Source: an uncultured Bacteroidales bacterium (GTDB lineage: Bacteria; Bacteroidota; Bacteroidia; Bacteroidales; UBA932). Taken from it: a stretch of 6,700 nt of DNA. Shown here in pieces: positions 1 through 3,961 of the stretch (the first letter of the stretch is position 1; every line of letters starts with the position of its first letter). Position numbers and translations under genes: made by a program. The DNA is taken from the NCBI GenBank assembly GCA_902461985.1, contig CABQAB010000110.1, forward strand, positions 1 to 6,700, written 5' to 3'. The notes beneath the pieces were generated by a model. That model was given only the letters and a program-made list of their open reading frames with translations. It did not search any database and was not told the DNA's origin.

Positions 1-419
1 GTTGGCCAGAGGAGCAAAGTGCTGACTGCAAACATAACTGTGACGGAGAGCGCATTCGGGAAAATCACCTCCGTCTGCTCCGGCCATATAAGCGAGACGA
101 TATACCCTATCGCGAAATATGTCAAGCTGCCGCAGAGACAGGCGAGGGCGACTCTTTGAAGGTCCACAAAAGAAGAATAGCGGACGATGCCGGTGTAGGT
201 GTGGAAAATGCGGAAACAGACGATGAAAGGGACCAGCCCCACAAGCAGTCCCAATGTCAATTGCCAGAAACTGCCTACGAAGACAGCCCCGCCCTGTTGG
301 AGATACCAGGCAAGATAGCCGGAGAACATCACTGCAGCGCAATCAATGCAGAGAATGCACCAGTACGGCAAAGCCTTTTTTGAAAAATACCAGTTGGATA
401 CTCTCTGAATAACATTCAT
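1..419 (-). CDS. CapD/WbpM-like membrane nucleotide-sugar epimerase/dehydratase, N-terminal part (3' end outside window)
   Basis: An ATG at 419 opens a frame with no stop to the window edge (139 codons visible). The protein starts MNVIQRVSNWYFSKKALPYW and shows about four hydrophobic segments (near residues 18-39, 49-69, 88-111 and 122-138). Between the second and third lies FRIFHTYTGIVRYSSFVDLQ (69-88), which I recognise from Bacteroidales polysaccharide biosynthesis proteins of the CapD/FlaA1/WbpM group. In that family this membrane region precedes a cytoplasmic Rossmann-type domain that dehydrates or epimerises UDP-activated sugars such as UDP-GlcNAc, an early step in making capsule or O-antigen sugars. 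That catalytic domain would lie beyond the window, so the reaction is inferred from the membrane part alone. The gene follows the antiterminator by 131 bases on the same strand with no recognisable promoter between, so it is probably the first structural gene of a polysaccharide operon. Confidence 0.85.
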   Translation of the reverse strand, partial: MNVIQRVSNWYFSKKALPYWCILCIDCAAVMFSGYLAWYLQQGGAVFVGSFWQLTLGLLVGLVPFIVCFRIFHTYTGIVRYSSFVDLQRVALACLCGSLTYFAIGYIVSLIWPEQTEVIFPNALSVTVMFAVSTLLLWP

Positions 420-550
420 AGTCAATAAATCTTCGGTCAAACAATGGGGAGGCCCGGTGGAAAGCATGCGTCCGTTCTCACCCGGTCAGAAGACCGGATG
501 CGCACGACATCACCCTTCCTTGACTATACAGCACCGGTGTAAAGTGAGCC
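420..550 (-). promoter_or_regulatory. Leader between antiterminator and CapD-like gene, with hairpin
   Basis: This 131-base non-coding stretch separates the antiterminator stop from the CapD-like ATG. In the minus-strand RNA, positions 500-492 and 487-479 form a nine-pair stem (CAUCCGGUC with GACCGGGUG, one U-G pair) closed by a UUCU loop. It has no T run behind it, so it is not a standard intrinsic terminator. A pause site or folding signal used by the antiterminator is plausible but unproven. A palindrome CACCGGTG lies at 532-539. No TAnnTTTG promoter element was found, which suggests the CapD-like gene is read from the promoter upstream of the antiterminator gene. Confidence 0.5.
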
Positions 551-1030
551 TCAATCCAATACTTCGAGCATCTCGGGCGGTATATACGACGTTGCTGCCC
601 AGATTATGCCCGCGACTTCGACAAGTACCCTTTTGCTTTTCCGCATCCTTACGACATAGCCTTCCGTGCCGCGTAATGGTCCGTCCTTCACACGGACGTG
701 GTCACCGAGAGTAATGACGGGTTTTTCCGTCATCAGAATCGGCATTTCGCAATACTTGCAGATCGAGATGAAAACATCCATATCCGCATCTCTCACGACA
801 ATCGGCTTGTAGTCCTGACGTGAACGCATAAAGGAGACTTTTCCCCCAAGAGGAGAAGAAGTCAGAAAGAGATCGATTATATCCTGAGTAGAATGGAGGA
901 AAATCAGATTCGTTATTTTCGGCGGAATGAAAAACTCCATGCCTGCGCTCTGCAGCGCAGGTGTCAGAGACTGCACCCGCAAATAGCGAAGGTTCATAAC
1001 ATACCATTGCAAACTAATCCCCCCCCCCAA
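551..1030 (-). CDS. NusG/UpxY-type transcription antiterminator of a polysaccharide locus
   Basis: This 159-residue protein has the layout of a specialised NusG paralogue. An NGN-like domain opens with QWYVMNLRY (8-16) and runs to about residue 100. A KOW motif follows at about 108-140 (LGDHVRVKDGPLRGTEGYVV), and the tail ATSYIPPEMLEVL is typical of the Bacteroidales UpxY-like group. Such proteins bind the elongating RNA polymerase and let it pass termination signals in long capsule operons; the CapD-like gene directly downstream fits this. The start is uncertain. No ATG lies upstream of the conserved WYV in this frame. I take the TTG at 1030, which overlaps a G10 run; a TTG at 1012, six bases after the run, would give MQWYVMNLRY. 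The first ATG in frame (997) would cut into the NGN domain. FIPP (34-37) is followed almost directly by KITNLIF, so the loop that usually lies between them appears short by nearly 20 residues, judged from memory of relatives. Confidence 0.85.
   Translation of the reverse strand: MGGGISLQWYVMNLRYLRVQSLTPALQSAGMEFFIPPKITNLIFLHSTQDIIDLFLTSSPLGGKVSFMRSRQDYKPIVVRDADMDVFISICKYCEMPILMTEKPVITLGDHVRVKDGPLRGTEGYVVRMRKSKRVLVEVAGIIWAATSYIPPEMLEVLD
1019..1028 (-). repeat. Homopolymer run, G10 on the coding strand, at the antiterminator start
   Basis: Ten consecutive C on the plus strand read as ten G in the antiterminator mRNA. The run begins with the third base of the proposed TTG start and supplies codons 2-4 (three Gly). 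With 10 G the frame continues into ISLQWYV. With 11 G it meets TAG at once, and with 9 G it meets TGA within twelve codons. If translation instead starts at the TTG at 1012, the run would sit at Shine-Dalgarno distance. Runs of this length are prone to slipped-strand change in bacteria; they are also a common sequencing-error site. Confidence 0.9.
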
Positions 1031-1071
1031 CTGGTTTAAATATAACGATCTTATACTGTCAAATTCGGCCG

Positions 1072-1103
1072 CAAAGATACGGCTTTTCCATGTAATTTAC
1101 AAA
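1072..1103 (-). promoter_or_regulatory. Bacteroides-type promoter for the antiterminator and polysaccharide operon
   Basis: Reading the minus strand, TTTG (1103-1100) is followed after exactly 20 bases by TATCTTTG (1079-1072). This matches the consensus known for Bacteroides primary sigma promoters: TTTG near -33, 19 to 21 bases, then TAnnTTTG near -7. Transcription would start near 1065, leaving an untranslated leader of about 35 bases before the TTG at 1030. It is the only promoter of this quality I noticed in the gaps between genes. Confidence 0.75.
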
Positions 1104-1206
1104 ACAATAATCAACTTGTCCAAGAAAGAGGCACGGAAAGGCAACAGACAGCCTCGGCAAGGATATTCCAACCGGAAATTCATCCGCCATGACCATAAGC
1201 GGCACT

Positions 1207-1248
1207 GCAACAGCAACAGCAATAGCAATAGCAATAGCAATAGCAACA
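1207..1248. repeat. Tandem hexanucleotide repeat, seven units of GCAAYA
   Basis: On the plus strand the units are GCAACA twice, GCAATA four times and GCAACA once, with no interruption over 42 bases. The array starts one base downstream of the OstA-like stop codon (1252-1250) and ends about 100 bases before the TTTG box of the antiterminator promoter. Four identical units make it a plausible site of copy-number change. A gain or loss of units would alter spacing but no identified reading frame. Confidence 0.9.
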
Positions 1249-1249
1249 C

Positions 1250-3961
1250 CTATTTCCTCCGGCTGAGATATTTGCGGCGGTAGTCTTCAAAGAGCCTGCG
1301 TTCGCGGGCAAGGTCGTCAAGTTCCTCCTGGATTGCGGCTCGCTTGCGTCTGCGTTCCTTTTCAAGTTTCCGCTGAGCCTTCGCAGCCTCTTTTTCCTTA
1401 CGTTTTCTTTCCTTTTCCTCCCATTTGGCCTGCTCACGCTCTTCCCTCGCCTTTTTTCTCTCCGCACGCAGTCTTGCCTTCTCCGCCTTTTTGTCATTTG
1501 GAGCAGATTTCAGGCTGTCCGCCACTGAAAGGGAATCGGCCGCAAGCCGTTCACCGGAAAGCGAGTCTGCGGGAACATTCAAGGAGTCGCGCACAGCCAA
1601 TGAGTCAAGACCGGGCACGTCAGACTTCAGAGAATCTCGTCCAAGCGAATCCGCGAAGTGGCTGAGACTATCCGCCTTAGCCAATGCCGCGAGCCGTTCC
1701 TGCTCTTCCTTAAGAAGTCTCTGCCTCTCCGCCCTGGCCTTGGCCAAAGAATCACGGAATGAAATTTCCGTATAGATTTTCTTCATGTAGCCAGGGAAAT
1801 AGCGGTCTGTCTGAATAAAGCGGGCACGGGGCCTGGAACGGAAAACTCCCCTTTCCGGCGAACGGTACGTAGCCTCCGTTACACTGTGCCTGTCTACCGG
1901 GCGGCGTTCCGGCTTCCAGTTGAAACCTTTGAGCAGACGCTCTTCCTCTTTCAGCTGAACTATAGGGTAGCCGTCATTTTTTGCCGCGTCGAAATAATAT
2001 ATCCGCTGGATTTCGCCATCCTTGAAATTGGCTGTAAGCATCTTTGATTCAGCTTTGTTGACTGTCGCCAGTTCATCCTCTTCCTTAATGAAGAACAATG
2101 CCTGCGCACCCCCAAGGGCATCGAAACGGCTGAGTCCGCCCTGCCCGTCGAAATATGCCATCATCTCCGCCGACTTGATCTGGTCGAAATGCTCTCTGTC
2201 CTCCTGAATGGTTATGAACGCGTTGGACATAAGGCTTGCCCTGTCCATAGCATTGTTATGGATAACGACATATATGCTGTCCGCCGCGTACTGACGGGTC
2301 TTTTCCTGCCACACAATCGGTTCGACATAAAGCCTCGCGAGGGAATCCAGGTCACTGTATGAAAGGGAGTCACACACAATCTGGGCATCATTGCGGAACA
2401 GCCGCACGTTCTTCAGTGCCGTCAGAAAGCCGACTTTCGTGGAATCCGGAACTGCAGGAACCGCCGCCAGCGAATCCGTAGCAGAAAACAATGAATCTAC
2501 AGCCGCCGAAAGGGAATCGGTTGCCGCTGACATAGAGCCAGCCGTATCTGCCGCCAAAGAATCCGTCGCCGCCACCAACGAATCAGCCGCCACAGTCAAA
2601 GAATCGCGCCCGTCTGACAACACTGACGAGTCTGCCGGCGATGCAAGCGAATCAGACGGCGTTGCAAGCGAATCAGGCAACGAAGCCGATGAATCCCCCT
2701 CCGCAAGTCCGGCCGTTCCCGAAACTGCGGAACCTTCAGCTGCTCCCTGAAGATTTGCATCCGCACCTTTACCTTTCTGGTTTTTCCTGTTCCTTATTTC
2801 CTCGGCCTGCTTCTTCGCCGCATAGTTCGCGTCATTTTCCCGAGCCGCCTGGTCCGCAGCCTTTGCAGCCTCCTCGGCAGCCTTGCGCCTGTATGTCGTC
2901 ACGGCATCCATAGAAAGGTTTTTCAGCCTTTCCTCCGCAGCCGCAACCGTCGCCGAATCAATGCTGAAACGCATTTCTGTCCAATAGTCAAGGAAATCTG
3001 CCGCCACATACACGGTATCGACAGCCCCGTCCTCGCCTCCGGTAGTCGCAATCACAGCCGGATCACGTCTCATCCTTATACGGGACAGCTTGTCACAATA
3101 GTCAGCCTTGCCCGCGACAGCGGAAACATTTCTCGTCGTGTCGATAATCTGCACGTTTCCGAGCATGGTCACATCATTGCTCACACGATAATAGAACACC
3201 GAATCGCACCACGCCTCCTGGCTGTCCGACATCAGATGCACATCCTTGTTGAACAGGAAAATCTCCTTCTCCCTGTTGTACCAGCCGGCATCCGATGAAA
3301 GCATATTCTCCTTGTTCCACATATCTGTCCTGCTTCCGAAAGTGGCAAAGGCCGTCTCCGAATCATAGTCCAATGAAGTGGTCTTCACGAAAACCGTGTC
3401 GGAGAACATATTCACGTCATTTCTGAACTGGAACAGCTTGAGTTTGGAATCATAGCGGCCGTCGATGCTCTCTATAATCTGGCCGTCCTTGTCCCTCATA
3501 GCCCCGCCTTCACGGAAAACCGCCACAGAATCCTTCGTGTTGTAGTCCAGGTTGCGGGTGCGGAGCGTGTTGTTGTCCTTGTCCTGAAGCTGCACAAGGC
3601 TGCCCCTGAACTCGGCCAGATCGCGGTCTATGAAATATGTGAGTTTGTCGCCGGTCAGCACGGTCTCGTCCTGCAGAATCTGCACGTTTCCGATTGCGTC
3701 TATGAATTTCTCGTCCACACTCCAGAATGCGGTGTCGCAGAGAAGGTATGTATTGTTATGGAAAAAGCGTGCCGGGCCTATGACTTTCCTATATGAGTTC
3801 CCGTCCACGTCCACCACCTGTGCCGATTTGGAACTGATCAGCACCACAAGACTGTCAGTGTCCTCACGCTGGGCATAAGAACGCAGCCCCGTGACACATA
3901 AAAGCATCACAGGCAGCAAAGTACGGACAATCCAGCCGGGAATCTGTTTTGAAATATCCAC
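1250..3961 (-). CDS. Large OstA/LptA-like periplasmic protein with DSL-rich linkers
   Basis: The 903-residue product starts with a GTG at 3961; a stop lies four codons upstream in frame, and the preceding gene ends 23 bases away. A signal peptide spans about residues 1-30 (hydrophobic LLPVMLLCVTGL, cleavage likely after RSYA). Residues 35-330 form repeated beta-strand units such as GNVQILQDETVLTGDKLTYF (91-110), typical of the OstA/LptA fold that carries lipopolysaccharide across the periplasm. A charged, Ala-rich helical stretch (340-398) and a low-complexity Asp-Ser-Leu tract (429-508) interrupt it. OstA-like sequence resumes at 511-670. A second DSL tract (763-818) and a strongly basic Lys/Arg/Glu coiled-coil-like tail (824-903) end the protein. 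It is far longer than LptA (under 200 residues in E. coli), and I see no clear LptD barrel. Placement after two SurA-like foldases supports an outer-membrane assembly role. The exact substrate is inferred. Confidence 0.85.
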   Translation of the reverse strand: MDISKQIPGWIVRTLLPVMLLCVTGLRSYAQREDTDSLVVLISSKSAQVVDVDGNSYRKVIGPARFFHNNTYLLCDTAFWSVDEKFIDAIGNVQILQDETVLTGDKLTYFIDRDLAEFRGSLVQLQDKDNNTLRTRNLDYNTKDSVAVFREGGAMRDKDGQIIESIDGRYDSKLKLFQFRNDVNMFSDTVFVKTTSLDYDSETAFATFGSRTDMWNKENMLSSDAGWYNREKEIFLFNKDVHLMSDSQEAWCDSVFYYRVSNDVTMLGNVQIIDTTRNVSAVAGKADYCDKLSRIRMRRDPAVIATTGGEDGAVDTVYVAADFLDYWTEMRFSIDSATVAAAEERLKNLSMDAVTTYRRKAAEEAAKAADQAARENDANYAAKKQAEEIRNRKNQKGKGADANLQGAAEGSAVSGTAGLAEGDSSASLPDSLATPSDSLASPADSSVLSDGRDSLTVAADSLVAATDSLAADTAGSMSAATDSLSAAVDSLFSATDSLAAVPAVPDSTKVGFLTALKNVRLFRNDAQIVCDSLSYSDLDSLARLYVEPIVWQEKTRQYAADSIYVVIHNNAMDRASLMSNAFITIQEDREHFDQIKSAEMMAYFDGQGGLSRFDALGGAQALFFIKEEDELATVNKAESKMLTANFKDGEIQRIYYFDAAKNDGYPIVQLKEEERLLKGFNWKPERRPVDRHSVTEATYRSPERGVFRSRPRARFIQTDRYFPGYMKKIYTEISFRDSLAKARAERQRLLKEEQERLAALAKADSLSHFADSLGRDSLKSDVPGLDSLAVRDSLNVPADSLSGERLAADSLSVADSLKSAPNDKKAEKARLRAERKKAREEREQAKWEEKERKRKEKEAAKAQRKLEKERRRKRAAIQEELDDLARERRLFEDYRRKYLSRRK
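1508..1675 (-). repeat. Second DSL-repeat tract within the OstA-like gene
   Basis: Codons 763-818 contain eight Asp-Ser-Leu triplets (for example ADSLSHFADSLGRDSL), spaced 5 to 10 residues apart with Ala, Pro, Ser and Gly between. The tract links the folded part to the basic tail. Each triplet matches the D-(S/T)-(A/I/L/V/M/T) motif described for Bacteroidota protein O-glycosylation. Confidence 0.75.
2438..2677 (-). repeat. First DSL-repeat tract within the OstA-like gene
   Basis: Codons 429-508 hold eight Asp-Ser-Leu triplets plus variants (DSS, DTA, DST), mostly in units of about seven residues such as AATDSLS and SATDSLA. The tract sits between two OstA-like regions and follows a charged helical stretch, so it is probably a flexible, exposed linker. 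The repeated codons also create the long plus-strand Ser/Glu-rich shadow frame in this region. Confidence 0.75.

Follow-up and report, generated by a model that had tools for sequence, protein, structure and literature searches.

UpxY and related systems

UpxY proteins of Bacteroides fragilis and B. thetaiotaomicron, like the protein described here, are of the NusG type and head a polysaccharide locus (PMC7819879, PMC7315117). The reported role of UpxY in B. fragilis is to keep transcription from terminating in the 5′ leader that precedes upxY (PMC7819879). LoaP is also a NusG paralog with an RNA hairpin in its operon leader, and the paper describing it cites work on the contacts of UpxY with upstream DNA (PMC12691694, its reference 77). 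The dfn element of LoaP is a small UNCG hairpin (PMC12691694), whereas here a predicted 5-bp covarying stem closes a conserved 24-nt loop. Capsule switching in Bacteroides is described as occurring via invertible promoters (PMC12632263). The JUMPstart/ops element of RfaH (RF01707) is likewise a short conserved element ahead of polysaccharide genes.

The locus described here lies in a 6,700-nt stretch of DNA from an uncultured Bacteroidales bacterium (hereafter, the window). Its layout differs from that of B. fragilis, since UpxY is reported to act upstream of upxY there; here the leader is predicted to be only ~55 nt long and a conserved element is found downstream of upxY (Table 1). In Neisseria, Campylobacter and Helicobacter, long G tracts form contingency loci in genes with surface or regulatory roles. 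The tract described here lies instead in the likely leader of an antiterminator gene of a Bacteroidales bacterium.

Table 1. Features of the upxY-like locus, in window coordinates.
Feature	Coordinates	Strand	Basis or remark
Next gene, start only, runs off the window	3..419	−	shares 61% identity with the N-terminus of a Polysacc_synt_2 protein (643 aa) of G680
Conserved predicted RNA element	476..551	−	alignment A5 of nine loci
Hairpin P2	500-492 with 487-479	−	after P1
Helix P1	545-541 with 516-512	−	closes a highly conserved loop of 24 nt (540-517)
upxY-like antiterminator gene, 153 aa, TTG start 1012-1010	551..1012	−	NF033644; P0001; starts of L039 and L014
Short 5′ leader with tract, probably ~55 nt	1013..1066	−	predicted transcription start
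G10 tract (C10 on the + strand)	1019..1028	−	on the coding strand of the upxY-like gene; positions −19 to −10, with the CAA after the TTG start as reference
Predicted Bacteroidota promoter TTG-N20-TATCTTTG	1072..1102	−	box match and like boxes in relatives
OstA-like gene, upstream syntenic marker	1250..3961	−	PF13100; 66% identical in G690

The upxY-like gene and its neighborhood

A first, sequence-only reading of the window had taken the gene to be NusG/UpxY-like, a capsule-type antiterminator of a polysaccharide locus. The identification holds, if narrowly. Against NF033644 (antiterm_UpxY) the window protein scores 99.0 (E 2.7e−28) to 99.3 bits, short of the curated cut-off of 100, and all five clade proteins that were scored fall under it (84–99 bits; the four relatives at 84–98). 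Because the scores fall just under the cut-off we use the name UpxY-like, and we regard the UpxY assignment as borderline but sound, the proteins representing a divergent subclade. The window protein is not a LoaP by the NF033641 model (25.6 bits, cut-off 125). A Pfam search with it gave no family at E 0.001, and among PDB sequences there were weak NusG/Spt5 matches only.

A protein search returned 14 relatives at E 0.001. P0001 is 99% identical to the window protein and is likewise predicted to start with MQWYV, and P0002, labeled at source as Candidatus Cryptobacteroides, is 62% identical. Matches were present in 25 of 398 family genomes searched at E 1e−18 and in seven of 300 genus genomes at E 1e−30, and in none of 393 order genomes at E 1e−25. 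The clade set used below consists of the window and eight relative loci kept at a tblastn E of 1e−30 or better: L039 and L014 (61% protein identity to the window), L015 (58%), L040 (52%), and L041, L016, L042 and L043 (42–45%). None nearer than 61% carries the locus among the 398 family and 300 genus genomes. A scan of genome contigs for further upxY relatives found only two loci, 25–26% identical, and searches of plasmid DNA and viral contigs gave nothing useful.

The position at the head of a polysaccharide locus is confirmed in two relatives. In both G680 and G690 the order is OstA, two further genes, upxY and Polysacc_synt_2, followed by UDP-glucose dehydrogenase and epimerase-type genes, so that upxY is the first gene of the locus; the window shows the start of the first gene only, and this fragment (3..419) alone had no Pfam match. 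The distance from upxY to the next gene is 191 nt in G680, 236 nt in G690 and 131 nt in the window, which leaves no upxZ between them.

A conserved predicted RNA element downstream of upxY

The predicted RNA element that follows upxY is, in our judgment, a stronger and more testable find than the G tract. When the DNA 3′ of upxY was compared, a conserved block, ACACCGGTGCTGTAGAGTCAAGGA, and then a hairpin were found directly after the gene in all nine clade loci (the window, L014, L015, L016 and L039–L043). The structure tested for covariation was drawn by hand from these same nine sequences (A5). Its whole-structure covariation is 0.448, against 0.201 (sd 0.035) when shuffled, with none of 500 shuffles as high, and slid versions of the structure gave 0.065–0.190. 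Two measures lay within the shuffles, namely pairs changed on both sides (121/500) and further pair types (59/500). Each of the five pairs of helix P1 is altered on both sides in at least one sequence, and 88.9% of the helix cells are paired. Hairpin P2 is weaker (70.4% of cells paired), in our view partly from misalignment.

A model of the element (R1) recovers its own nine building loci at 63–87 bits, and on 25 other sources with more distant UpxY-like genes it found nothing above 14 bits. An RNA-model search of the family with strict filters returned one of 249 genomes, a count for which the number of genomes with this upxY among the 249 is not given. G680, G690, G808, G830, G902, G922 and G971 each have one copy of the core pattern, which is absent from the remaining 293 of the 300 genus genomes; the seven are exactly the genus genomes found with this upxY at E 1e−30. 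Both searches used the same draw of 300 genomes, as judged by their handles. Because the pattern derives from sequences of the clade itself and the element adjoins upxY, co-inheritance accounts for part of the match.

On the element, no Rfam family attains its gathering score. The sole match, CRISPR-DR9 over P2, was discarded (15.5 bits where the gathering score is 45; E 4.5), as was JUMPstart (RF01707), which was over its cut-off in none of eight genomes (and in one of 14 controls) and had no listed weak place on the element. Some letters of the element resemble JUMPstart/ops. We propose the element as a candidate site where UpxY may join the transcription complex or prevent termination, a concrete and cheap-to-test candidate for the recruitment of UpxY to operons.

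Start codon and reading frame

The main idea of the sequence-only reading was that changes in the length of a run of ten G would break the upxY frame, with lengths of 9 or 11 ending it; its fallback was a start at TTG 1012, with the run at the position of a ribosome binding site. The ten G are indeed present, and the interval 1012–1030 spans both candidate starts and the run. The arithmetic is also correct. From a start at TTG 1030–1028, which shares its G with the first base of the run, the frame is open at a run length of 10 and ends after 11 codons at length 9 and after 5 at length 11. From TTG 1012–1010 the protein is the identical 153 aa at every run length tried (7–13).

The relatives place the start downstream of the run. 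In L039 an in-frame stop lies seven codons ahead of the TTG, with no alternative start between, L014 has an upstream in-frame stop and then TTG codons as the sole possible starts, and L015 has an ATG start two codons earlier than the TTG position. The start that fits this set, and is therefore likely, is TTG 1012–1010. The GGGIS extension that a start at TTG 1030 would add is seen in none of 14 aligned relatives, and neither L014 nor L039 has an equivalent of the window ATG at 997. Thus, frame switching is unlikely, and the main idea gives way to the fallback, with which L039, L014 and L015 agree.

The leader and its G tract

The box consensus used for the predicted promoter is one that we take to be typical of Bacteroidota. 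Promoter-like boxes end 62 nt before CAATGG in the window and 63–65 nt before it in the three closest loci. The G10 run thus lies ~40 nt after the predicted transcription start, within the likely 5′ leader. A transcript starting right at the run had been our first guess and was dropped once the TTG-N20-TATCTTTG boxes appeared. Two other arrangements were also rejected: the run falls outside the promoter spacer, and no inverted repeat of at least 10, as expected of an invertible promoter, was found at window positions 540–1260. A hexamer repeat, (GCAATA)6.7, lies at 1207–1246, upstream of the upxY promoter in the gap that separates it from the OstA-like gene.

The run is the longest homopolymer in the window (the runner-up has length 6), and a first-order Markov model of this make-up predicts 0.012 G/C runs of at least 10 per window. 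It is therefore longer than chance would give, as contingency tracts are, and long tracts are in excess in G680 as well. A check of run length across relatives, which the sequence-only reading had called for, found G10 in only one of nine clade loci; in the other eight, G runs reach at most 5 within the 200 bases preceding the aligned protein start.

In a leader alignment the columns of the window's G run are occupied by a Shine-Dalgarno-like GGAGGA in L039, L014 and L015, at positions −16 to −11 with CAA as the reference. The leaders of these three relatives otherwise diverge, with L039 and L014 close to each other. Of the 229 predicted ORFs taken as a sample from their genomes, 10 have GGAGG 20 nt or less from an ATG start. 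Pairing energies were computed with an assumed 16S tail; the tail pattern was found in none of eight genomes, so the predicted pairing rests on that assumed sequence. Predicted values are −14.5 kcal/mol for the window, −12.7 for L039, −10.9 to −11.1 for L014, and −11.7 for L015 (−7.6 in a narrower stretch). In silico, pairing strengthens from 5 G (−8.4 kcal/mol) through 10 (−14.5) to ~11 G and is then flat, with a plateau near −15.3 at 12, and the spacing between the 3′ end of the run and the start is constant whatever the run length. Since pairing saturates, a change from 10 to 11 G would alter little.

In G680 pairing reaches −10 before 14 of 648 ORFs and in 16 of 648 mock regions, with means of −2.4 and −3.1, respectively. 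These counts are alike, so Shine-Dalgarno-like motifs are not generally enriched in G680, in agreement with the report that Bacteroidia ribosomes do not in general recognize them (PMC9976891). The exception described there is ribosomes lacking bS21, which favor very strong Shine-Dalgarno motifs (PMC9976891). An effect of the run on translation is thus possible, as a prediction only. Of the ways in which the length of a contingency tract can act, the frame is unchanged from TTG 1012, the promoter spacer is unaffected and translation is predicted to respond.

Poly-G tracts in related genomes

With overlapping matches merged, the genomes of the eight relatives contain 11 (G680), 7 (G690), 3, 3, 1, 1, 0 and 0 tracts of at least 9 G; six of the eight have some, and G830 and G922 have none. 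The 11 in G680 are distinct tracts in 2.6 Mb. The G/C run spectrum of 1.01 Mb of G680 counts 477 runs of length 5, 15 of 6, 5 of 7, 6 of 8 and 7 of 9. It was taken from 51 stretches, two of which (L132 and L133) were chosen with a tract in each already known; without these there are five runs of length 9 in 0.97 Mb. Extrapolation gives 0.11–0.74 runs of at least 9 in the 1.01 Mb, or ~0.3–1.9 when scaled to 2.6 Mb, against the 11 counted. One tract has 9 G in G690 (L066) and 8 in G680 (L116), with 200-base flanks 99.5% identical. These data support poly-G length variation in this bacterial group, as distinct from this locus. The slippage that the sequence-only reading proposed for the run is made plausible by the excess of long tracts in G680 and by the 8 and 9 G pair; that the run is not conserved in the eight other clade loci, and that two of the eight related genomes lack tracts of at least 9, count against it. 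L066 and L116 are near-identical DNA in the genomes of two species, and a C run beside the tract could pair with it.

Interpretation of the tract

We put at about even the chance that slippage in the leader G10, ahead of the likely TTG start, tunes UpxY translation rather than switching the frame. The tract would slip in living cells, and its length would change upxY translation via Shine-Dalgarno-like pairing. More UpxY would then yield more capsule transcript, with UpxY acting at the covarying RNA element directly 3′ of its gene and before the biosynthesis genes. A smaller but considerable possibility is that the tract is neutral, a G-rich ribosome-binding-like motif that drifted to a long run by slippage and whose length has no effect on capsule expression. 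Its absence from the eight other clade loci is consistent with neutrality, as are the saturation of predicted pairing near 11–12 G and the finding, reported for Bacteroidia ribosomes, that such motifs are largely disregarded (PMC9976891). However, GGAGGA is kept in place in three relatives with otherwise divergent leaders (L039 and L014 being close), and in G680 runs of 6–7 G are rare while longer ones are in excess.

It is improbable that slippage toggles UpxY, and so the capsule, on and off from a start at TTG 1030. The frame from that codon is open at length 10, and other G tracts of related genomes do lie inside genes, some out of frame. We nevertheless rejected frame switching as the main mechanism: the downstream TTG 1012 serves every length tried and is where the relatives start, and the extension is absent from the aligned relatives. 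Equally improbable is that the run length was misassembled or miscalled, or that the long run arose by chance. The 0.012 runs expected per window are not negligible over a large scan, but tracts of at least 9 recur in most of the related genomes.

Rather unlikely as a whole, though worth stating, is the joint reading that a slippery poly-G ribosome-binding element is a heritable dial on the capsule antiterminator and that UpxY works via a dedicated RNA element. Among the open-license papers searched we found none combining UpxY with a homopolymer, nor one combining Cryptobacteroides with phase variation, and slippage in upxY or this RNA element appeared in no title or abstract start among the open-license matches listed. 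If the joint reading is true, its two layers of control would be new for UpxY systems, as far as the titles and abstract starts of those matches go.

Genes carrying G tracts in related genomes

We inspected 31 distinct tracts of at least 8, of which 10 are clearly inside long ORFs; the other 21 (intergenic, in short ORFs or unclear) were left out. Seven are in frame (L097/L069, L070, L071, L075, L078, L117 and L103) and three are out of frame (L050/L073, L114/L083 and L086). L030 adds a G8 that is in frame within an open stretch of 389 residues. By Pfam, the hosts include TonB/SusC-type receptors (L050, L097, L075), a restriction specificity protein (HsdS, L103), a DUF4434 protein (L070), two propeller-type regulators (L114, a hybrid two-component regulator, and L078), an ECF-type sigma factor (L071) and a fimbrillin-like piece (L086); L117 and two of the pieces had no match. 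Together with the G tract of the window, these long tracts in receptors, regulators and a restriction-specificity gene suggest slippage-based variation in an uncultured gut group, which would stand beside the promoter inversion known in Bacteroides.

Several individual tracts are of separate interest. After the G9 in L050 (6339–6347), L114 (tract at 18571) and L086, reading continues in another frame. The type I restriction specificity gene (Methylase_S, L103:2604–3821) has an in-frame eight-base tract with C on the coding strand. By eye, the G9 of L068 lies between promoter-like boxes, and short MNYKTPEI genes in L065, L084 and L091 (around 1501) have G9 near the start, one in frame and two out. 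A G9 is also found ~145 nt upstream of a more distant UpxY-like gene, before promoter-like boxes (L035:1246–1254). In G690, a G14 tract precedes a short ORF (L088:448–461).
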